From: a virus
DNA: 20,913 bases
Reading direction: 5' to 3' (one strand)
Virus record (IMG/VR): IMGVR_UViG_3300044733_002800
Span: 1-20,913 of that record
Made by a program: the position numbers and the translations under genes. Within the stretch, counting starts at the first letter, position 1, and every line of letters starts with the position of its first letter. Under the pieces are notes generated by a model, which did no database searches, was not told the origin of the DNA, and saw only the letters and a program-made list of their open reading frames with translations. Of this stretch, positions 468 through 19,912 are shown piece by piece.

Positions 468-2313
468 AATTCACCAATTCCTTGCGAGCTTCAAGCCGCC
501 GGAAACGCTGACCGTCGCACAATGGGCGGAAAAATACCGCTGGCTTGAAAAGGGGAGCACTAGCAAACCAGGGCGCTACTCGTTTGACGCTGGGCCGTAT
601 CAACGCGAACCGCAAGAAAGCTACACCGACCGCGAGGTTCAGACGACCGTGCTGCAATGGGCTTCGCGCACCGGCAAAACGGAGACGCTGAACAACCTCG
701 ACGGCTACATCATAGACCACGATCCGAAGGCAATCTTGGTCGTCTATCCTACGCTCGACAGCGCAACGAAATGGAGGAAGGAATTTTTCAATCCGATGGT
801 GCGGGCAACGCCACGGTTGCGCGGGAAGATCAACATCAAAGCGAGGCACCAGGACAACACGATGCTTTCGATCAAATTTCCCGGCGGGCACATCGCGGCG
901 ATTGGCGCAAACTCGCCGAGCGGATTCCGGCAAATCCAATCGCCGGTTGTGCGGTGCGATGAGATTGACGCGATGGAGGATAGCAAGGAGGGCGACCCGG
1001 TGGCGCTGTCGTTCAAGCGGGCCGACAACTATCCCGACAGCATCCAAGTGCTGAGTTCAACGCCGACGATCAAAGGCAAGAGCCGCATCGAATCGTGGCT
1101 TGAGCGAAGCGATTATCGGAAATGGTTTTGTCCGTGCCAGCAGTGTGGACATTTTCAAGTCCTCGAATGGTCGCAAGTGAAGTGGGACACGGAAGCGCCG
1201 GAGGGCGCGAAATACGTCTGCGAAAACAAGGAGTGCGGGCATGAGCATGACGACGCGGGGCGGCGGGCGATGATCGAGCAAGGCGAGTGGAGGCCGACGA
1301 AACCGTTTGCCGGGATTCGCGGCTATTGGCTAAACGGGCTAAACACGCTTTTCCCGGCAAAGAAAGGATTCGCCAACAAAATGCACCAATTCGTTGCCGA
1401 GTATCTGGAGGCGAAGGAAGGCGGCAAGGCCACGATGCGGACTTGGAAGAACACTTTCCTCGCCATCACCGACGATCCACAGGAAGAAAGCGAAAAAGCT
1501 CCGGACTGGCAGCGCCTCTACAACCTCCGCGAAAACTACACCGCGGCACCGCGGGCGGTCAGCCTCGTCACCTGCTTTGTGGACATCCAGAACAACCGGC
1601 TCGAATTGGAATGGAAAGGTTGGGCACGCGATGAACAAAGCTGGGGACTCGATTACCTCGTGCTTGACGGCAACCCGCTCGACATGCAACCCGGCAGCGT
1701 TTGGCACCGGCTAATGACGGAACTTCAGCGGACTTTCAAACGCGAGGACGGCGCGGAGTTGGCGCTGTCAATGTGCTTTGTGGACGCGGGCAAGTGGGGC
1801 GACTGGGCTTTCCAGGCATACCGCCTGAGCATGACTTACCCGAAGCTGATGGGAAAATTCATGTTGTCGAAAGGCGTTGGTCAGCACGGAGCGCCGATCA
1901 ATCCGAGGAAGATGGCGTCGATTCATCGGAACATCAAAGGCATCCCGATTGGCGCATGGGCGGGAAAGGATTTGATCTACACGCGACTCCGCCTTGAGCC
2001 GAACGCGGACGGAACTTTTCCAACCGGCTACATGCACCATCCGATGAGCTACGATCAAAACTATTTCCAGCAGCTCACCAGCGATTCCGTCGTGCTCGAA
2101 TACAAGGCCGGGGAAGAGGTCCGCAAATACGGCAACAACGAAGGGAAGCGAGACGAGGCGCTCGATTGCGCTTATGGCAACCTGGCCGTATTCATGCTCC
2201 GGCGCTGGAACTTTGACGCGATGGAAGCGGACCTCGCGCTGACCAAGCCCGATGCGCCCGCGCCGGTGGCGCCCGCGCCGGCAGTGTTTCGCGGGGGCGG
2301 ATTCAGATTGTAA
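403..2313 (+). CDS. Terminase large subunit, GpA family
   Basis: ATPase-nuclease of the DNA packaging motor, acting at the portal of the empty prohead. The N-terminus has the PPETLTVAQWAEKYR pattern typical of GpA proteins. A Walker A-like loop ASRTGKT is encoded at 661-681, and a Walker B-like VVRCDEID at about 946-969. A cysteine-rich zinc-finger-like insert (CPCQQCGH, then CENKECGH) lies at about 1130-1245. Asp-rich blocks CFVDIQNN, CFVDAGKW and DEALDCAYG fit the C-terminal nuclease. The ATG at 403 gives 636 aa and overlaps the small subunit by 65 bp. A TTG at 361 or 436 is also possible. The Pro/Ala-rich tail is probably disordered. Confidence 0.93.
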   Translation: MPTSKNSASAILSPGLTSLRSEIHQFLASFKPPETLTVAQWAEKYRWLEKGSTSKPGRYSFDAGPYQREPQESYTDREVQTTVLQWASRTGKTETLNNLDGYIIDHDPKAILVVYPTLDSATKWRKEFFNPMVRATPRLRGKINIKARHQDNTMLSIKFPGGHIAAIGANSPSGFRQIQSPVVRCDEIDAMEDSKEGDPVALSFKRADNYPDSIQVLSSTPTIKGKSRIESWLERSDYRKWFCPCQQCGHFQVLEWSQVKWDTEAPEGAKYVCENKECGHEHDDAGRRAMIEQGEWRPTKPFAGIRGYWLNGLNTLFPAKKGFANKMHQFVAEYLEAKEGGKATMRTWKNTFLAITDDPQEESEKAPDWQRLYNLRENYTAAPRAVSLVTCFVDIQNNRLELEWKGWARDEQSWGLDYLVLDGNPLDMQPGSVWHRLMTELQRTFKREDGAELALSMCFVDAGKWGDWAFQAYRLSMTYPKLMGKFMLSKGVGQHGAPINPRKMASIHRNIKGIPIGAWAGKDLIYTRLRLEPNADGTFPTGYMHHPMSYDQNYFQQLTSDSVVLEYKAGEEVRKYGNNEGKRDEALDCAYGNLAVFMLRRWNFDAMEADLALTKPDAPAPVAPAPAVFRGGGFRL

Positions 2314-2328
2314 AATAGCTGTTGCGCG

Positions 2329-2360
2329 ATTGCGAAACGTGCGCGATACGTTTGTGCAAT
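2329..2360 (+). promoter_or_regulatory. Inverted repeat over the start of the ribbon-helix-helix gene, candidate operator
   Basis: AAACGT (2335-2340) and ACGTTT (2348-2353) are perfect inverted arms around a 7-nt spacer. A second pair, ATTGC (2329-2333) and GCAAT (2356-2360), extends the symmetry and runs into the ATG at 2359. Ribbon-helix-helix proteins usually bind such palindromes, so autorepression is the simple reading. As RNA, the same repeat could fold and hide the start codon. Confidence 0.5.
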
Positions 2361-2508
2361 GAAGAAATTCACTGCCAGCATTAACACCCGCGTCACTCCG
2401 GCGACGCGGGATAACCTAAAGAAAAAAGCGCAAAAGCGCAAAATCCGCCTGACTGACATTGCCCGCGAGGCGCTGGAAGAAAAGGCACAAGCCAAACAAA
2501 ACCAATGA
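2359..2508 (+). CDS. Small ribbon-helix-helix DNA-binding protein
   Basis: This 49-aa protein has an N-terminal beta strand (KKFTASINTRV) followed by two helices (TPATRDNLKKKAQKRK, then LTDIAREALEEKAQ). That is the CopG/Arc/MetJ ribbon-helix-helix pattern, including a basic first strand that would enter the major groove. Such proteins act as dimeric repressors. It lies 45 bp after the large terminase. Its TGA overlaps the ATG of the next gene (ATGA at 2505-2508), so the two are probably translationally coupled. An inverted repeat covers its start codon. I infer that it regulates the cassette up to 4128. Confidence 0.72.
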   Translation: MKKFTASINTRVTPATRDNLKKKAQKRKIRLTDIAREALEEKAQAKQNQ

Positions 2509-3113
2509 AGTCAATAACTACAACTTGGACGGGCATCCGCCCGCTCATCATGTCGAATCCGCAGACGGTGGAAATCGCCAATCCGTTCGCGGTAAATTCG
2601 CGGCGCATTAACAACCTCCTGAAAGCCGCGCGCAAGAAGGGCGACGAAAACCGCATGGCTGAACTGGCCGACGAACAGAAACGCGGAGATTGGGAGGCGT
2701 CCGCGTATTGGGACTCGGAGCGCAAGGCGTTTTACGTTCCCGACACGGCGCTGCTCGCTTGCATCCGCAACGGTGCGGCAGCGGCAAAAAAAGGAAAGGA
2801 CATCGACCGCGCCGTCATTATTACCGAGACGGAAGCGATTATTGAAACCGACATCAAACACAACAGCCTCGACGCCTACTACGCCGACGCCGCGTTTCGT
2901 CTGGAATGTCCGGCGAAGGTGCCGCCGAAAACCGGCGCGCTCATCTGGAAAGTCCGGGCAATGGTGCCGACCGGCTGGAAAGTCACGTTCACGATTGAGT
3001 TCGACGAGAACATCGTTGCCGAGAAATCGCTTCGTGAGGCGCTGGAATTAGCTGGCCGTCTCAGCGGAATCGGCGGATGGCGTCCCAAGTTTGGGCGGTT
3101 TTTGGTGAGCTAG
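2505..3113 (+). CDS. Conserved phage protein with RAMP/Cas7-like motifs (inferred), next to a structured RNA
   Basis: Function unknown; 202 aa. An N-terminal strand-loop reads TWTGIRPLIMSNP (7-19). A charged helical insert follows (about 31-65), then YVPDTALLACIRNGAAAAKKG (77-97) and a glycine-rich basic end GIGGWRPKFGRF (188-199). I have an impression of phage proteins ending in a similar motif, but could not check it. An N-terminal strand, a Pro-anchored helix with Arg and a C-terminal G-rich loop are also what RAMP (Cas5/6/7) RNA-binding folds show. That analogy is inference. The start is an ATGA overlap with the upstream gene. A pentamer/hairpin RNA array begins at its stop codon, so it may bind that RNA. 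Confidence here refers to the gene being real. Confidence 0.85.
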   Translation: MKSITTTWTGIRPLIMSNPQTVEIANPFAVNSRRINNLLKAARKKGDENRMAELADEQKRGDWEASAYWDSERKAFYVPDTALLACIRNGAAAAKKGKDIDRAVIITETEAIIETDIKHNSLDAYYADAAFRLECPAKVPPKTGALIWKVRAMVPTGWKVTFTIEFDENIVAEKSLREALELAGRLSGIGGWRPKFGRFLVS

Positions 3114-3148
3114 GCGAGGTCGGGCTATGCGAAGCCTTGCAATGACTG

Positions 3149-3191
3149 GCCGCACACACCGCGCACGGGAAACCGTGGGCGGCAGTGCGGC
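3149..3191 (+). other. Hairpin 1 of the array, GAAA tetraloop
   Basis: The outer stem GCCGCAC/GTGCGGC has 7 bp (3149-3155 with 3185-3191). The internal loop is ACA (3156-3158) opposite CA (3183-3184). The inner stem pairs 3159-3162 with 3179-3182, then has a G-G mismatch (3163/3178), then pairs CACGG (3164-3168) with CCGTG (3173-3177). The GAAA loop is at 3169-3172. Confidence 0.8.
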
Positions 3192-3241
3192 GTGTCATGG
3201 AACGGCGTGGCGTGGCCAGGCGAAGCGAAGCGGTGACGGGT

Positions 3242-3276
3242 CCACACACCGCGCTCTTTCGGGAGCGCGGCAGTGG
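3242..3276 (+). other. Hairpin 2 of the array, UUCG tetraloop
   Basis: The outer stem CCAC (3242-3245) pairs with GTGG (3273-3276). The internal loop is ACA (3246-3248) opposite CA (3271-3272). The inner 9-bp stem (3249-3257 with 3262-3270) closes with a U-G pair on a TTCG loop (3258-3261). GTGAC (3233-3237) and GTCAC (3281-3285) could add a further outer helix. Confidence 0.8.
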
Positions 3277-3326
3277 CGCGGTCACAGCCATGCAATGCAA
3301 GGCGCAGCGCGGTGCGGACAAGAAAA

Positions 3327-3365
3327 GCAAACACGCCGCGCTTCTTCGGGAGCGCGGAAGTTTGC
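3327..3365 (+). other. Hairpin 3 of the array, cUUCGg tetraloop
   Basis: The outer stem GCAAAC (3327-3332) pairs with GTTTGC (3360-3365). The internal loop is ACG (3333-3335) opposite AA (3358-3359). The 9-bp inner stem (3336-3344 with 3349-3357) carries TTCG at 3345-3348 with the canonical C-G closing pair. Compared with hairpin 2, the last two pairs swap order (U-G then C-G instead of C-G then U-G), so pairing is kept despite base changes. Confidence 0.82.
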
Positions 3366-3418
3366 GCGAACTGGCGATGCATAGCGGGGCAAGGTTCGGA
3401 CCAGCCAAGCATGGCGTG

Positions 3419-3455
3419 GCAAACACACAGCGGCTTACGGGCCGTTGCAGTTTGC
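3419..3455 (+). other. Hairpin 4 of the array, UACG tetraloop
   Basis: The outer stem GCAAAC (3419-3424) pairs with GTTTGC (3450-3455). The internal loop is ACA (3425-3427) opposite CA (3448-3449). The inner stem (3428-3435 with 3440-3447) contains two G-U pairs, and the loop TACG (3436-3439) is of the UNCG type. The inner stem is unrelated in sequence to hairpins 2 and 3, yet the plan is the same. Confidence 0.82.
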
Positions 3456-3522
3456 TGGGCGCGGCATGGCTCGGTATGGCGCGGCGAGGCAGGGCATTGC
3501 CTGGCGCGGCGTGGCACAATCA

Positions 3523-3539
3523 TCCGGCTAATCACCGGA
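3523..3539 (+). other. Short hairpin between the RNA array and the next gene
   Basis: TCCGG (3523-3527) pairs with CCGGA (3535-3539) around a 7-nt loop. It is followed by CAGTTTT and the ATG at 3547. It may mark the 3' end of the array RNA or a weak terminator. The stem is short and the T run is brief, so it is not called a terminator. Confidence 0.35.
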
Positions 3540-3546
3540 CAGTTTT

Positions 3547-4050
3547 ATGACAAACCAACCAGAAAAAGAACCAATCGAAGCAGAAGTTGAAATCACGTCC
3601 GACGACGCCTATCCGGCGCTTTGGGTGCGTCTCGTTGACGAAATGATCGAGAAAGGCATCACGTTCGGAACCAAATACGAAATGGCCTATCTCGTTGACC
3701 GGCTCGCCTGTCAACCCGAGTCCATCGCATTTGGCATTGCCATCTCGAATATCAATGACGAGTTGATCGAGAGCGGGCTTTACTTGTCCGCGCGCGAACA
3801 GCGCGGAGCGGGCTATATCGTGCTGATGGCAGACGGCGCGGAGGAAGTGGCGCGCACTCGCGTTCGCCGTTCCTTCCGTGAAATGGCGCGGGCGTGCAAA
3901 CTGTTTGGCGGCATCGCCCGCAACCCCGAGGCGCAGATCACGGACGACACAAAAAAGCGTTTGCTCAAGTGCGAGGAAAAAGCGGCAATCCGGCTTTCGC
4001 TGATGCGCGCGCCGATTACGAACGCGCGAAAGGCGAATCTTTTGGAGTAG
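3547..4050 (+). CDS. Unknown protein, possibly winged-helix
   Basis: This 167-aa protein is not recognised. After an acidic N-terminus it is largely helical. The segment around residues 57-95 (helices, then SGLYLSAREQRGAGYIVL) looks like the recognition helix and wing of a winged-helix domain, but that is only a pattern impression. The C-terminal half is a basic helix (VRRSFREMARACKLFGG) and a KKRLLKCEEKAAIRLSL helix. It lies between the pentamer/hairpin RNA and an intrinsic terminator, so it probably belongs to the same transcript as the ribbon-helix-helix and RAMP-like genes. No Shine-Dalgarno precedes the ATG. Confidence 0.75.
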   Translation: MTNQPEKEPIEAEVEITSDDAYPALWVRLVDEMIEKGITFGTKYEMAYLVDRLACQPESIAFGIAISNINDELIESGLYLSAREQRGAGYIVLMADGAEEVARTRVRRSFREMARACKLFGGIARNPEAQITDDTKKRLLKCEEKAAIRLSLMRAPITNARKANLLE

Positions 4051-4061
4051 AGCGGTTATAC

Positions 4062-4098
4062 ATGGCGCTGCAAAGCGTGGATATGCAATCGCAAGGGC
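4062..4098 (+). repeat. Second, short block of the GC-ending pentamers before a terminator
   Basis: Five in-phase units at 4062-4086 (ATGGC, GCTGC, AAAGC, then two more ending GA and GC) are followed by two 6-nt units that run into the stem at 4093. The unit pattern is that of the 3106-3515 array. This block also starts just after a stop codon. Confidence 0.55.
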
Positions 4099-4128
4099 GG
4101 CACTGGAAACGGTGCCGCCCTTAGTTTT
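4093..4128 (+). terminator. Strong rho-independent terminator with GAAA loop
   Basis: A 13-bp stem (4093-4105 with 4110-4122), containing one G-T wobble, closes on GAAA (4106-4109). AGTTTT follows. It would end the transcript carrying the ribbon-helix-helix, RAMP-like and 3547 genes, and separates them from the head operon. Confidence 0.85.
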
Positions 4129-4148
4129 GCCGATTTAGTTAAGGTGCA

Positions 4149-4177
4149 TTGACAATCGGCGGGCGTGCGGCAATAGT
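4149..4177 (+). promoter_or_regulatory. Putative sigma70-like promoter of the head operon, near-leaderless
   Basis: TTGACA (4149-4154), a perfect -35 box, lies 17 nt before AATAGT (4172-4177). The start codon at 4187 is only 9 nt after the -10 box, so the leader would be a few nucleotides at most. It directly follows the terminator at 4093-4128. Confidence 0.6.
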
Positions 4178-4186
4178 CGGCAGCAA

Positions 4187-4768
4187 ATGCCCGACCCACT
4201 CAGCGGAATACCAAGCCAATTCGAGGCCGGCGACACGGTGATTTTCACCGAGAATTTCGCTGATTATTCGCCATCCAGCTACACCGGAACGCTTGTTTTC
4301 AACAACAGCGTTGCCGCAGCGACTACGATTACCGCCACAACGAGCGGAACGAGCTTTCTCTTTACGCTCTCGGCGGCAGTGACGGCGGCAATCACGCCAG
4401 GAATTTACACCGTGGCGTTTTACATGACGAGCGGCGCGACCCGCTACACGGCGAAAAGCGGCATCATCAACATCCTCCCAAACCTGACCGCGACGGCAAC
4501 GCCATCGTTCGCGCAGGCGCAAGTGACGCTTCTAAAGACGGTCCTTGCCGAGTTCAACGCGACCACGCGGCAGAGCGTCAACTTCAACGGGCAATCTTTT
4601 TCCCGAGCCTCGATCAAAGAGTATCAGCACCAGCTCACCTACTACCGCGCGGAGGTCATCCGCGAGACGGCAGCGGCAAACGCGGCGCGAGGCGTCACGA
4701 CCGGAAACCGCATCGCCATTCAATTCGTGCCGGCCAATGACAACAACCCCGTAAGCGTAGCTCAATGA
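4187..4768 (+). CDS. gpW-like head-tail joining protein with an N-terminal beta domain
   Basis: This 193-aa protein has two parts. Residues about 1-100 are rich in Thr/Ser/Ala beta strands (from EAGDTVIFTENF on) and resemble Ig-like domains of phage virion proteins. Residues about 108-155 (QAQVTLLKTVLAEFN through IKEYQHQLTYYRAEV) match the gpW helix-strand-helix pattern, with a basic/aromatic second helix. gpW sits in the neck and is normally about 70 aa and all there is, so the extension is unusual. The position just before the portal, with an ATGA overlap at 4765-4768, agrees with a gpW role. Confidence 0.65.
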   Translation: MPDPLSGIPSQFEAGDTVIFTENFADYSPSSYTGTLVFNNSVAAATTITATTSGTSFLFTLSAAVTAAITPGIYTVAFYMTSGATRYTAKSGIINILPNLTATATPSFAQAQVTLLKTVLAEFNATTRQSVNFNGQSFSRASIKEYQHQLTYYRAEVIRETAAANAARGVTTGNRIAIQFVPANDNNPVSVAQ

Positions 4769-9069: not shown

Positions 9070-9207
9070 GTGAAGCAGAAAAACCCCGCCGCCGTGGCGC
9101 TTGGCTCGATCAAAAGCGCCAAGAAATCCGCTGCGTCCAGGCGCAACGGCAAGCTCGGCGGCAGGCCAAAGAAAACCAATGAATCCAAAACACAAAAAGC
9201 TCCTTAA
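9070..9207 (+). CDS. Short basic protein of the NPAAVALG type
   Basis: This 45-aa Lys/Arg-rich product contains NPAAVALGSIKSAKKSA and NGKLGGRPKK. Similar short proteins with NPAAVALGRLGG-like starts and GGRPRK-like ends occur in many bacteria and phages without an assigned function. The basic GRPKK end suggests nucleic-acid contact. The start is a GTG just after a promoter-like sequence. The 3' end overlaps the glycosyltransferase gene by 29 bp in another frame. Confidence 0.6.
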   Translation: MKQKNPAAVALGSIKSAKKSAASRRNGKLGGRPKKTNESKTQKAP

Positions 9208-10525
9208 GCGCGCGGCCAAGTGCGGCGCGGACGGCGACCACGCGACGGCGGAAAAGCTCTGGCGTGAATACTTAGAGCACGACCCGAATCATCCCGCCGT
9301 GCTGTTCAATGTCGGCTGGTGTATAGAGCAGCGCGCAAACTCGCCGCAGGATCGGCTAGCCGCCGCTGAGTATTACGAAAAGGTTCTGCAATCGCCGCTT
9401 TCCGATACGGAACTAAAAGCGAACGCGATGAATCAAATCGGGCTGATGTGCCTGACCATTGGCGAGGATGAAAAGGCCGCAACAAGTTTCGGCTTCGCGC
9501 TCAAGATCAAGCCCGACCACGGAGCCGCGAAGATCAACCTGGCCGACGCGCACCGGGCGCTTGGCGAATACGACATGGCCGCGAGCGAATACGCCAACGT
9601 CCTAGACCAAAACCCGAACAACCCAGAGGCGAACATGTGCGCCGGGATGCTGGCGCTTCTGCTTGGCGATTACCCGCGCGGATGGGACTTGTATCGCTCG
9701 CGCTGGCAGGTCAAGACGTTCACGACAAAGCCAATGGAGACGACGCGCCCGCGCTGGAATGGCGAGCCGCTGGACGGCAAAACGATCATGCTTTGGGAGG
9801 AACAGGGCTTTGGCGATTCGTTCAACTTCATTCGCTACGCCTCCGCGCTTGCCAAGCTCGGCGCTCGCGTGTTGTTTGGGTGCCAGCCAATCCTTCGAGA
9901 AGTTATGCGGGGAGTGGACGGGCTGGCCGACGTGGTGGAACGCAGCGACGCGACGCCGTTTGACTACCACCTTCCGCTTCTCGACGTTCCGCACCTTCTC
10001 GGCACAACCACGGCAAACATCCCGCCAGCGCATTGCCTCCGCATCATGCCGGACTGGCGGCGCGTGAGCATTGAAGGCAATCTCTCCCGCCCGCGTGTCG
10101 GTCTGGTTTGGGCCGGTTCGCCAAGCCACGGCAAAGACAAGGCCCGCAGCGTTACGCCGGAAATGCTGCAACCGATCATTGACGCGCACCCGGAACGCGA
10201 CTTTTACAGCCTCCAAGCCGGACCGCGCGCGCATGAGTTTGACCGGCTGCGCGGAGTGACCGACCTCGCGCCGAAAATCGAAAACTGGACAGACACGGCG
10301 CAATTACTGACCTGCATGGACTTGCTGATTTCGGTGGATACCGCGTGCGTTCACTTGGCCGGATGCGTCGGCACGCCGGTTTGGATGCTTTGTCCCAACT
10401 CGCCGGACTGGCGGTGGATGCTGGGGCGCGACGATTCACCCTATTACCCGAAGCTCCGGCTGTTCCGGCAACCGAAGGCCGACGATTGGGCGACGCCGAT
10501 TGAGCGGATAAAGAACGAATTATGA
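9179..10525 (+). CDS. TPR-repeat glycosyltransferase (family 9-like)
   Basis: This 448-aa protein has TPR helices in residues about 1-170 (for example AATSFGFALKIKPDHGAAKINLADAHRALGEYDMA). The rest resembles the heptosyltransferase-like domain of bacterial TPR glycosyltransferases. WEEQGFGDSFNFIRY lies near 206-220, then comes RVGLVWAGSPSHGKDKARSV, and near 380-425 ISVDTACVHLAGCVGTPVWMLCPNSPDWRWMLGRDDSPYYP, which fits nucleotide-sugar binding. It would move a sugar onto protein or glycan in the cytoplasm. The ATG at 9179 is preferred to longer reading in the same frame, which would begin inside the 45-aa gene. There is no signal peptide. Confidence 0.88.
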   Translation: MNPKHKKLLKRAAKCGADGDHATAEKLWREYLEHDPNHPAVLFNVGWCIEQRANSPQDRLAAAEYYEKVLQSPLSDTELKANAMNQIGLMCLTIGEDEKAATSFGFALKIKPDHGAAKINLADAHRALGEYDMAASEYANVLDQNPNNPEANMCAGMLALLLGDYPRGWDLYRSRWQVKTFTTKPMETTRPRWNGEPLDGKTIMLWEEQGFGDSFNFIRYASALAKLGARVLFGCQPILREVMRGVDGLADVVERSDATPFDYHLPLLDVPHLLGTTTANIPPAHCLRIMPDWRRVSIEGNLSRPRVGLVWAGSPSHGKDKARSVTPEMLQPIIDAHPERDFYSLQAGPRAHEFDRLRGVTDLAPKIENWTDTAQLLTCMDLLISVDTACVHLAGCVGTPVWMLCPNSPDWRWMLGRDDSPYYPKLRLFRQPKADDWATPIERIKNEL

Positions 10526-11175
10526 AAAAGGGAAGCAAAATGACCGCTGACCAAAAAGCCAAAATGGTTGCTTATTGGAGCATACACAAAATTAAACGAG
10601 TCCCAAAACCTTGCGCCTGCGGATGCGGTGAAATAACGCTCAATCGCTTTATTCATGGACATACAATGAGAGGAATCAAGCATGGCGTGAACTGGTGCGA
10701 TGCGCAAAGACAAGGGCTGAAGCGCGCACACCGGGAGGGAAAATTCAAAAACGCAAAACCGCTCGACTATGCGGCAATAGCTGAGAAAAACAGAGGTCGT
10801 AAGCGACCGGATAAAGCTTGTGACGCAACGCGTGCCGGAGTGTTACAGGCGTGGGCTGATGGCGCATACGATGGCACAAAATCGGCGGCTGGTCCGAACA
10901 ATGCGAGTGCCGGAATCTGGCGATTACGCGATCCGCGCCGCGCTGTGCATGAGTTCAGAAGTGTCACATTCTGGGTGAAAAATAACGAACGCTTTTTTGC
11001 GCCCGATGATGTGCAATGGCACCGCGATAAACGCGGACACTGGAAGTGCAGGGCGGTTTCAGGGCTGCAAAGTCTAAGCCCGCGCAAAAAGCATCCGAGC
11101 GGATCATGGAAGGGGTGGACTTGGTATTCGCAAACGGAGCGGTTAAAAAACGATGGGGCGGATTTGCTTTCCTAA
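10522..11175 (+). CDS. Homing-endonuclease-like protein with Cys motif
   Basis: This 217-aa protein is basic. CACGCGEITLNRFIHGHTMRG (31-51) resembles the Cys/His knuckle of NUMOD3/HNH-type phage endonucleases. The C-terminal part (WRLRDPRRAVHEFRSVTFWVKNN through SGSWKGWTWYS) resembles a DNA-binding module of such proteins. A complete HNH catalytic set (His-Asn-His) is not obvious, so it may only bind DNA. It is visibly richer in A/T than its neighbours, a sign of separate acquisition. Its ATG overlaps the preceding TGA (ATGA). Confidence 0.55.
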   Translation: MKKGSKMTADQKAKMVAYWSIHKIKRVPKPCACGCGEITLNRFIHGHTMRGIKHGVNWCDAQRQGLKRAHREGKFKNAKPLDYAAIAEKNRGRKRPDKACDATRAGVLQAWADGAYDGTKSAAGPNNASAGIWRLRDPRRAVHEFRSVTFWVKNNERFFAPDDVQWHRDKRGHWKCRAVSGLQSLSPRKKHPSGSWKGWTWYSQTERLKNDGADLLS

Positions 11176-11182
11176 ATGAAAA

Positions 11183-11782
11183 ATGAACAACTCTAGACTG
11201 TCTGACTTCCTCGCCGCCCGCGCGAGCGAGACTTACCCGGAACCTCGCACCGCCGGGCACGACGATCTTACCGCGCGCATGGCCGCGCTTGTCGCGCCGC
11301 ATCTATCGCACGGCGCGTCTATTCTCGACGTTGGATGCGGACAAGGCCCGGCACTCGAATGGTTCACGGCAAACGGATTCTCGCCGCTCGGCATCGCGCT
11401 AGGGCAAGAGGACGTTGACGCTTGTATCGCAGCGGGCTTTCGCTGTAAGCAGATGGACCAAAACAATATAACCTTTCCCGACCGCGCCTTTGATTGTGTG
11501 TGGGCACGGCACGTTTTGGAGCACTCTGTAATTCCGCTCTTCACCCTGACCGAGTTTGCGCGCGTCTTGCAACCGCTGGGCATCCTTTACGCCGAGATGC
11601 CCGCGCCGGACACCGCTTGCGCGCACCAGATCAATGCCAACCATTACAGCGTCTTTCCGGCTTCGTGCTGGCAGTCGCTAATCGAGCGAGCCGGATTCGA
11701 GATATTGGAGGCGCGAACTATCAACCTGCAAACCGGAATGGGGCCGGATGTGTATTTTAGCTTCATCGCTCGCAAATTATGA
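11183..11782 (+). CDS. Class I SAM-dependent methyltransferase
   Basis: This 199-aa protein has motif I ILDVGCGQG (47-55), the SAM-binding loop. A post-I region and FDCVWARHVLEH (103-114), the usual motif IV block of Methyltransf_11 enzymes, follow. Then come LLATEFARVLQPLG-like helix and strand elements and a beta-rich C-terminus. The size is that of a bare Rossmann domain, so the target cannot be read. Between two glycosyltransferase genes, methylation of a sugar or lipid-linked glycan is a reasonable inference; DNA methylation is unlikely as no DPPY-type motif is seen. It is coupled to the next gene by ATGA at 11779-11782. Confidence 0.88.
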   Translation: MNNSRLSDFLAARASETYPEPRTAGHDDLTARMAALVAPHLSHGASILDVGCGQGPALEWFTANGFSPLGIALGQEDVDACIAAGFRCKQMDQNNITFPDRAFDCVWARHVLEHSVIPLFTLTEFARVLQPLGILYAEMPAPDTACAHQINANHYSVFPASCWQSLIERAGFEILEARTINLQTGMGPDVYFSFIARKL

Positions 11783-12822
11783 CACTTCACTACGCCGGAC
11801 AACCCGGACAGGGCTACGGCTGGGGCACCTGCAACACCCATCTCCGCGCGGAACTGGCAAAGCTCGTCACGCTCAACGAAGGAACGGCAAACGTAGTATT
11901 CATGCCGCTGGCCGATCACGACTTGAACCCGGCGACTCCGGCACGCGGCGAGGTTAATCTGGCTTACACGTTTTTCGAGTTTGAACTAGGCCCAAACGCC
12001 GCCGCCAACGCCGCGAAGTATGACGTTGTTTTCGCCGGTTCAACATGGTGCCTAGACCGGCTCGCCGAGCGTGGGATCCACAATACGGCGCTGCTCATTC
12101 AGGGAGTGGACAGTAAAGTATTCAAGCCGCAGCCGCCGCGATTTCCTGCAAACAGATTGCAAAGCGAAGGCGCATTAAAAATGACCGACACGCCAATCGG
12201 CGGCAGCTTCCGAATATTCAGCGGCGGCAAATTCGAGTTCCGCAAGGGGCAGGATTTGGTTATCGCCGCGTTCCGCGAGTTCTCCAAGACGCATCCCGAA
12301 GCGCATTTGGTTTGCTCGTGGTTCAATCCTTGGCCGGACTTGGCAAAGCAGCTTGTGAACAAAATGGGATGGGATGGCCCGACGGTGAATCAGTCCGCAC
12401 TATATCACGCCGTGCTTTGCGCGGAAGGACTCAGGCCGGAACAATTCACGATCCTCCCGCAACTCAGCCACACCGACCTCGCGCGCGAAATGGCAAACAC
12501 CGACGCCGGCCTATTCCCGAACCGCTGCGAGGGCGGCACGAATCTGGTGTTGATGGAATACTCCGCGCTTGGTCGGCCCGTCATCGCCAACGTGCTGACC
12601 GGGCACGCGGATGTTTCGGAGGCGATTCACTACCAGATTCCCGCAACGGCAGACCCGGTTACGGGATGGGCTAAACAGCGCGTGAAGGACATTGTGGATC
12701 GAATGGAAATGGCGAAGCATTACCGGCATGTGCCGGTGCCGTCGCTTCCGTATTGGCCGTGGTCCGACGCCGCTGAGAAGATCGTCACCACGGCGCGGAA
12801 ATACTTTGCACGCCTAAAGTAA
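11779..12822 (+). CDS. Glycosyltransferase, group 1 (GT4-like)
   Basis: This 347-aa GT-B enzyme has an N-terminus with a glycine-rich acceptor-side loop (YAGQPGQGYGWGTCNTHLR). The middle has FSGGKFEFRKGQDLVIAAF, the usual donor-domain opening with the Lys pair region. Near residue 250, CEGGTNLVLMEYSALGRPVIA carries the E-x7-E motif that holds the nucleotide sugar. It would transfer a sugar from an NDP donor in the cytoplasm. It is short at the N-terminus compared with many GT4 enzymes. It is the last gene of the cargo island. The stop overlaps the putative promoter of 12841. Confidence 0.9.
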   Translation: MTLHYAGQPGQGYGWGTCNTHLRAELAKLVTLNEGTANVVFMPLADHDLNPATPARGEVNLAYTFFEFELGPNAAANAAKYDVVFAGSTWCLDRLAERGIHNTALLIQGVDSKVFKPQPPRFPANRLQSEGALKMTDTPIGGSFRIFSGGKFEFRKGQDLVIAAFREFSKTHPEAHLVCSWFNPWPDLAKQLVNKMGWDGPTVNQSALYHAVLCAEGLRPEQFTILPQLSHTDLAREMANTDAGLFPNRCEGGTNLVLMEYSALGRPVIANVLTGHADVSEAIHYQIPATADPVTGWAKQRVKDIVDRMEMAKHYRHVPVPSLPYWPWSDAAEKIVTTARKYFARLK

Positions 12823-18566: not shown

Positions 18567-19100
18567 ATGCCACAACAACTGCCAGACATTCCCAAGGTTG
18601 ACCGCAAGACCAGCTACCAAGGGCTTAAAGGAATCGTCGCCAAGCTGCGAGACGAGTTCATCCGATCATATCTTGTGGACTCGGCGAGCGTGACGGTTGT
18701 TGACAATCCGGGAAAAACCAGAAGCGCGGAGGTCAACTTCCCGAATCAGGGAGGCGGAATAGTTCCAGCCAACGCTTACCGCGCCGGGGAAACCGAATTG
18801 GGAAGCGATGACCCGGAAAACCCGGTTGCACCGCCAGCTCTGCCGCTTCCTTCTACTGACACCGGAATAAGAGGCACTCAACCACTTGATATTGCCAGCA
18901 ACGAAACAGACGGATATACGCTGCGGGTAATAACGCGGCGTTACATCTACAACAGCGGCGCAGGAACATTCGATGAAATCGCTTTTGCTCGGGATGTTAC
19001 ATGGGACAGCAGCGGTTTATTTTACAAATTTGGGCCGGAAATAGTGGTGGAAACGGGAAACGTAACAGGAAGCGGCAGCGCAAGCGGAGGGCTTCCGTAA
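18567..19100 (+). CDS. Virion-associated protein, unknown
   Basis: This 177-aa protein begins with helices (TSYQGLKGIVAKLRDEFIRSYLVD) and continues in Gly/Pro/Thr-rich, probably beta, stretches, ending in SGSGSASGGLP. No domain is identified. It begins 3 bp after the previous gene and its TAA overlaps the ATG of the next (TAATG). A tail or tail-tip structural role is inferred from position. Confidence 0.6.
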   Translation: MPQQLPDIPKVDRKTSYQGLKGIVAKLRDEFIRSYLVDSASVTVVDNPGKTRSAEVNFPNQGGGIVPANAYRAGETELGSDDPENPVAPPALPLPSTDTGIRGTQPLDIASNETDGYTLRVITRRYIYNSGAGTFDEIAFARDVTWDSSGLFYKFGPEIVVETGNVTGSGSASGGLP

Positions 19101-19912
19101 TGATTGCAACTGCCGCGTTTTGCTGGAAAGCCAAGGCACAAACAATTTCCTGGTCGCACACGGCTTTGTGGGGGCTTTCCGTGCATTGGGCAAGACGATG
19201 GTTCTCTAACGTGGTGTTCTACGGCGACGATTCCGCGCATCGGTTGTTTGTGGACGGGCTGCAACTGCCATTCGAGCGCGTGCATTTGCTGCCGGAGATT
19301 CCTGACGACCTCGCGCACGTCTATGACTTGCCGAAACTGCACGCGCTGCGCTCCGCTGTTCAAGAATACGGCCCGACGCTCCACCTTGACCACGATTGCC
19401 ACTTCCGCCGCAAGCCGTCCGGCGCGATCCTGTCCGCACCGTTTGCCGCTGAATATCGCTACACGGAAACCGACCAGCCGGTTCTTTTCCGGCAAGTGCG
19501 CGAGTTCAACGCCAATCTACCGGAACCGCTGCCGGAGCCGCGCCTGGGGCTTGCCAGCGGAATCATGGGCGGCGGGGACGTTGACGGCATCGCGGCGCTT
19601 TGCATGGAGTCCATCGAGCGCGCCACTTCGCCGGCCAACCGCGAGGCGTTTTCCGCACAGGAGCCGGGTGCCGGATATTGGAAATCAGTGCTTATTGGCG
19701 AAATGGCCTGCGGCAACCGTTGGCCGGACGCCGAGTGCATCTTGGCCGATGGCGGCGGGACTGAGGACGAGCGAAGGCGCATCGGGTATCATCACGTTGC
19801 GGGAGGAAAGAAAGACGCCGGGATGCTCGCCGTAATGGACAACCTTTTCAGGGACGATTTTCCGCAGGAACGAGCGGAACTTTTTCAGAGGTGGAACAAA
19901 CTTATTGAATAG
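19100..19912 (+). CDS. Glycosyltransferase-like protein (GT-A type)
   Basis: This 270-aa protein shows features of GT-A enzymes. HLDHDCHF (95-102) contains a DxD-type motif for metal and nucleotide sugar. Near 76-84, YDLPKLHAL precedes it, and GIMGGGD (154-160) follows. The overall pattern (an N-terminal strand-helix region, the D-x-D block, then a Gly loop) resembles family members annotated as DUF6734-like, but I cannot verify that. It lies inside the tail genes, so a virion substrate is plausible. The TAATG overlap sets the start at 19100, and 33 upstream codons in frame are ignored. Confidence 0.6.
   Translation: MIATAAFCWKAKAQTISWSHTALWGLSVHWARRWFSNVVFYGDDSAHRLFVDGLQLPFERVHLLPEIPDDLAHVYDLPKLHALRSAVQEYGPTLHLDHDCHFRRKPSGAILSAPFAAEYRYTETDQPVLFRQVREFNANLPEPLPEPRLGLASGIMGGGDVDGIAALCMESIERATSPANREAFSAQEPGAGYWKSVLIGEMACGNRWPDAECILADGGGTEDERRRIGYHHVAGGKKDAGMLAVMDNLFRDDFPQERAELFQRWNKLIE

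Follow-up and report, generated by a model that had tools for sequence, protein, structure and literature searches.

Positions 2359–4050 of the window, by which we mean the whole stretch of 20,913 nucleotides of viral DNA analyzed here (IMG/VR record IMGVR_UViG_3300044733_002800), very probably hold a phage-borne VIPR cassette with a putative function in the RNA-guided repression of recombinase genes of competitors. VIPR (Viral Interference Programmable Repeat) was published in April 2026 (PMC13142463, bioRxiv 2026.04.26.720920) and combines a minimal RAMP protein with vrRNAs that consist of alternating GGY and NN units and a structured tail (PMC13142463). The NN pairs recognize double-stranded DNA with one base skipped between pairs, and the systems, of which seven types have been distinguished, repress competing phages and satellites and include accessory vap genes (PMC13142463). 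Described only months ago, VIPR may be the ancestor of the RAMP machinery of CRISPR. The locus contributes a divergent VIPR lineage from environmental phages, a vipr-linked candidate accessory family and a concrete target.

The vipr gene occupies positions 2505–3113 of the plus strand and encodes 202 amino acids between an ATG start and a TAG stop codon. It is encoded in 13 viral contigs at 87–100% identity and is therefore a real, conserved gene, with family members in described phages, among them SUSP1 and wV8. A phmmer search against the sequences of the PDB returned a single match, the 'SUSP1 Vipr protein' (36pp_D, E 1.4e-17, residues 2 to 201). As its sole PDB relative by sequence is the Vipr of SUSP1, the ORF can be assigned to VIPR. 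The homolog of phage SUSP1 itself was found with an E value of 1e-19, and the window Vipr falls into PHROG_4652 (E 1.2e-32), which also contains gp95 of wV8. A VIPR system is expected to encode a minimal RAMP homolog with kinship to known Viprs and a mass of about 20 kDa, and the 202-residue ORF corresponds to this. NCBIfam and Pfam returned nothing meaningful for the vipr ORF, PADLOC reported nothing, and the relatives found in bacterial genomes are only distant, mostly with 22–31% identity. Three vipr genes (L031, L033 and L088) have frameshifted C-termini or internal stops and are apparently broken copies.

The original prediction had described the product of this ORF as RAMP/Cas7-like and had proposed structure prediction followed by a fold search. 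The AlphaFold2 model, for which 58 homologs from vipr loci served as input, is of high confidence (pLDDT 94.3). The best 50 PDB matches listed by Foldseek come without exception from type III or type VII effectors, in each case from a Cas7 subunit, with E values from 4.3e-6. VIA-align superposed about 150 residues with Z scores that reach 11.2, and the listed rows are Cas7 of types III and VII as well as Cas7-like RAMP domains, among them type III-E gRAMP. Every listed PDB match being a Cas7/RAMP chain, the prediction, which had rested on motif shape, is borne out, and the ORF encodes, as judged from its model, a Cas7-fold RAMP protein. Smaller features that had been pointed out were found as well: the Pro-anchored Arg helix starts at N26-P27 and bears the basic residues RR/KAARKK (DSSP helix 27–45), the glycine-rich loop GIGGWRPKFGRF is present at the C-terminus, and the stop codon (3111–3113) lies inside the first pentamers, where it overlaps unit 1 of the GGY-NN array, AGC-TA (3108–3112).

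Five vrRNAs lie between vipr and the next gene, all on the plus strand, each with a guide of 9–13 GGY-NN units and a hairpin tail. The guide of vr1 (3108–3152) consists of the units AGC-TA, GGC-GA, GGT-CG, GGC-TA, TGC-GA, AGC-CT, TGC-AA and TGA-CT (GGC-CG). The NN pairs of vr2 (3189–3243) are GT AT AC GT GT CA GA GA GG CG (CC), those of vr3 (3286–3330) CA AA AA GC GC GC CA AA (AA), those of vr4 (3363–3422) GC CT GA AT GG AA TC CC CA AT GT (AA) and those of vr5 (3453–3517) TG GC AT TC AT GC GA AG AT CT GC GT AC. In vrRNAs, GGY/NN (YNNGG) units are expected in tandem runs of 9–16, the GGY being constant and the NN hypervariable, and this is what we observed in the window guides, in the unit composition and in the enrichment across 98 loci described below. 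In the 450 units compiled from 11 loci of the clade, the second G is present in 96% and position 3 is C or T in 90%; in the same units the NN positions reach entropies of 1.90 and 1.99 bits, and all 16 dinucleotides occur. A protein-coding reading of the array region was rejected, the open frames being by-products of the repeat phase.

The structured 3' tail of published vrRNAs has its counterpart in four nested hairpin tails and one terminal hairpin, again on the plus strand. The tail of vr1 (3149–3191) comprises the outer stem GCCGCAC/GTGCGGC, ACA, an inner stem, a GAAA loop and CA, whereas that of vr2 (3242–3276) has the outer stem CCAC/GTGG and an inner stem capped by UUCG. The outer stems of vr3 (3327–3365) and vr4 (3417–3457) are GCAAAC/GTTTGC and GGCAAAC/GTTTGCT. 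The terminal tail of vr5, AATCATCCGGCTAATCACCGGACAGTTTT (3518–3546), is a distinct hairpin that reaches the start of the next gene, and its stem shows a compensatory change in a related locus (CCCAC/GTGGG in L006). The nested hairpins have ACA or ACG between the stems and UUCG, GNRA or similar loops; further outer stems are TCTC/GAGA and GCAGAC/GTCTGC. The stems covary, with 3–5 pair types at many positions. As the tails were chosen by a pairing criterion, the percentages of paired positions are biased and the variety of pair types alone counts as evidence.

The lack of an association between this protein family and pentamer arrays in other genomes had been named as a refutation of the prediction, but the association exists, and the pentamer phase is far beyond chance. 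Phased GGY pentamers (at least 6 of 9) were detected nearby on the vipr strand in 87 of 98 vipr loci from viral and bacterial genomes, a set that includes near-duplicates and is not made up of independent loci. The controls gave 0 of 89 for distant forward and 1 of 89 for distant reverse regions, 2 of 98 for the other strand close by, and order-1 Markov sequences gave 0 of 294. GGY pentamers were not detectable near eleven vipr relatives (L040, L052, L055, L056, L064, L065, L077, L081, L082, L091 and L118), which may use another repeat consensus or be located at a contig edge. L025 carries eight consecutive vrRNAs downstream of vipr; the final guide among them looks like window vr4 with altered NN pairs, as if NN substitution drove guide evolution.

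Decoded by the published rule, with one nucleotide skipped after each NN pair, vr1 gives TAx GAx CGx TAx GAx CTx AAx CTx. In amino acids this is Y D R Y E/D L K/N L, which corresponds to the YDRYELKL motif of Sak4-like recombinases. In viral contigs, at least 120 stretches match this pattern, compared to 9 for vr4, 19 for vr2 (with one base half-specified) and 12 for the permuted units of vr1. All 80 vr1 matches that were examined are in frame and encode the YDRYELKL motif of one protein family; they represent 57 distinct 24-mers that differ at skipped wobble bases only. The family was identified as a Sak4-like ssDNA annealing protein by PHROG_124 (E 2e-53) and PF13479, based on the two matches scanned. 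The reading of NN pairs on DNA with a 1-nt skip, which in VIPR often falls on the codon wobble, was thus seen for vr1 only. Since the wobble base is skipped, vr1 should recognize every synonymous version of the motif. Sak4 belongs to the known phage recombinases and is present, for example, in phage HK620 (PMC5928155). The Sak4 target fits a known weak point, since phages require Sak and Sak4 recombinases to replicate in Staphylococcus aureus (PMC5499656) and a phage satellite, too, acts on phage recombinases (PMC11846896).

A vr1 target within 2 mismatches was found neither in the phage's own record nor in those of 13 relatives, all of which are fragments; one relative's record contains a match with 3 mismatches. 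Sak4 was not found in the records of the VIPR relatives, fragments that were searched without a positive control. Scans of 369 genomes of one class gave zero matches for vr1, permuted and 2-nt-skip patterns alike, so that this control for skip length is uninformative.

The published systems of SUSP1 and P. fulva suggest the following mechanism. Each vrRNA would be coated by Vipr subunits and would expose its NN pairs at fixed spacing. The ribonucleoprotein could then bind matching double-stranded DNA, with no PAM needed, and block transcription, which would silence the gene. A competing phage would thereby lose its recombinase. Repression is likelier than cutting since the cassette has no visible nuclease, and the system probably serves to attack rival viruses. 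We further consider it reasonably likely that vr1 is aimed at a motif, YDRYELKL, which unrelated phages conserve in their Sak4 protein sequences, as a broad-spectrum, codon-written guide, and that the locus represents a VIPR lineage that has a winged-helix accessory gene of its own. Such a use of the wobble-skipping code would allow a single RNA to act on many phages through a motif conserved in the protein, irrespective of the codons used.

For the other guides, target searches gave little. No convincing target was found for vr2, whose viral-contig matches lie mostly in unrelated genes. The nine matches of vr4 to 8 NN are at chance level and none extends to all ten core NN, and the 9-NN core of vr5 has no exact viral match. 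A guide search in 1.1 Mb of loci yielded no targets above chance. As four of five guides are without a known target, the target evidence comes from one short guide of 8 NN; the scan of viral contigs covered vr1, vr2, vr4 and vr5. These missing targets, together with the location of the cassette between terminase and head-connector genes, would suit a self-regulatory or structural phage element, for example a regulator of packaging or head genes, for which the Sak4 match would be coincidental. However, the genes up- and downstream of the cassette vary among relatives (e.g. L023 and L027), and the vipr family was also found in unrelated phages and prophages. Moreover, the hypervariability of the guides is confined to NN, and the vr1 count exceeds those of the three comparable patterns several-fold, with matches in frame and in one protein motif. 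We therefore regard a self-regulatory or structural role as unlikely.

The closest known counterpart of the cassette is the type II VIPR of phage SUSP1 (PDB 36pp). The two Viprs are homologous over their full length with 36% identity, and both systems are phage-borne, with intergenic GGY-NN arrays beside vipr, a structured 3' tail, a small accessory gene (in the window a candidate) and a 1-nt skip that is aligned to the codon wobble at the decoded target. In the SUSP1 system, vap1 increases repression. On the other hand, the window Vipr is placed on a long branch separate from the SUSP1 group, a position for which the tree program warns of possible misplacement. The window array is located between vipr and the candidate vap, and its tails look like nested hairpins, whereas for the SUSP1 tail a pseudoknot has been modeled. 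In the window, the single guide that was decoded leads to a recombinase motif, while guides of the SUSP1 clade lead to a satellite in 18 of 20 cases. The window cassette is thus a further member of the known VIPR system and possibly a new type within it. The Felixounavirus wV8 (EU877232) has a similar arrangement, in which gp95, a Vipr homolog annotated as hypothetical, is followed by an accessory gene, gp94, which shows no BLASTP similarity to the candidate Vap of the window. Repeat features annotated as 'DR_4' (2259–2316 and 3652–3709 of locus L015) flank gp95-gp94 and fit the position of a VIPR repeat RNA.

Cas7 of CRISPR type III (Csm3/Cmr4) and of type VII shares the fold and the glycine-rich loop with the window Vipr (Foldseek E 4e-6, VIA-align Z 11), but the latter is only 8–18% identical to most of the listed chains and its guide is read on the target as two bases in three. 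The combination of a CRISPR array and a cas operon that marks class 1 CRISPR-Cas systems was not found, and eight window genes that were scanned gave no match to other Cas proteins. A CRISPR array was rejected as an explanation of the repeats, which have units of 5 nt with interspersed hairpins, unlike CRISPR repeats. Rfam gave only sub-threshold chance matches for window positions 2200–4400. Because the nearest folds are Cas7 subunits of types III and VII, which bind RNA targets, one could also think of an RNA-targeting defence nearer to type III CRISPR, in which the protein would bind Sak4 mRNA instead of DNA. However, vr1 has the same sense as the Sak4 gene; it cannot pair with the mRNA but with the template DNA strand only, and would thus act on DNA. 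Published VIPR binds double-stranded DNA (PMC13142463), and the cassette is without a visible nuclease gene, which makes RNA targeting very improbable. An association of the protein with the repeat RNA would agree with the published Vipr proteins, which co-purify with GGY/NN repeat RNAs (PMC13142463).

Within the VIPR cassette, vipr is flanked by two further genes of the plus strand. Upstream, positions 2359–2508 encode a ribbon-helix-helix (RHH)-like protein of 49 amino acids that resembles NikA and ORF56 (Pfam NikA-like, E 6e-4; NCBIfam ORF56, E 5e-4; both below the curated cut-offs). Its stop codon overlaps the start codon of vipr (ATGA), and close relatives have the ORF conserved in the same place ahead of vipr. 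It is possibly a DNA-binding co-operon gene or an autoregulator. Downstream of the arrays, the gene at 3547–4050 encodes 167 amino acids with a predicted winged helix-turn-helix followed by long helices; the AlphaFold2 model (pLDDT 77) has weak matches to MarR/PurR/VanR-like winged-helix regulators. Among 18 homologs in viral contigs, 16 are adjoined by vipr or its remnant, and the remaining two (L127 and L133) are fragments that end before vipr and both contain VIPR tails. The homologs in L134 and L137 lie beside vipr although the Vipr has diverged. This gene is therefore a candidate accessory gene (Vap) of the window's VIPR lineage.

The candidate Vap comprises two subfamilies that are about 25% identical and exchange behind nearly identical vipr genes (window, L020, L023 and L025); the Vipr of L020 is 99% identical to that of the window, yet it is accompanied by the other Vap subfamily. 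The subfamilies join at a conserved sequence, the terminal tail ...CAGTTTTATGA, suggesting a modular exchange at this point. In L137, vipr is directly followed by the Vap homolog and the arrays come after. More generally, L134 and L137 combine intermediate Viprs with the same Vap family, with the array elsewhere or none obvious between the genes, and are useful links between the window clade and other VIPRs.

After the candidate Vap gene, about five units and a hairpin, GGGCGGCAC..GTGCCGCCC, were noted at 4064–4128, with no strand assigned. Relatives carry intact arrays at the matching position, and we speculate that this is a degenerate sixth vrRNA. That the arrays as a whole are decayed, non-functional repeats maintained by replication slippage would agree with this degenerate set and with the window units that depart from GGY (e.g. 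TGA, GTC and GAA), but it is hardly plausible given the covarying tail stems, the NN letters of vr1, which are the same in four loci of the clade with changes confined to GGY positions, and a near-maximal NN diversity that is not expected from slippage. Outside the cassette, the tail region of the window (9101–12822 and 19001–19912) contains several ORFs that by eye resemble glycosyltransferases and a methyltransferase, an unusual cargo.
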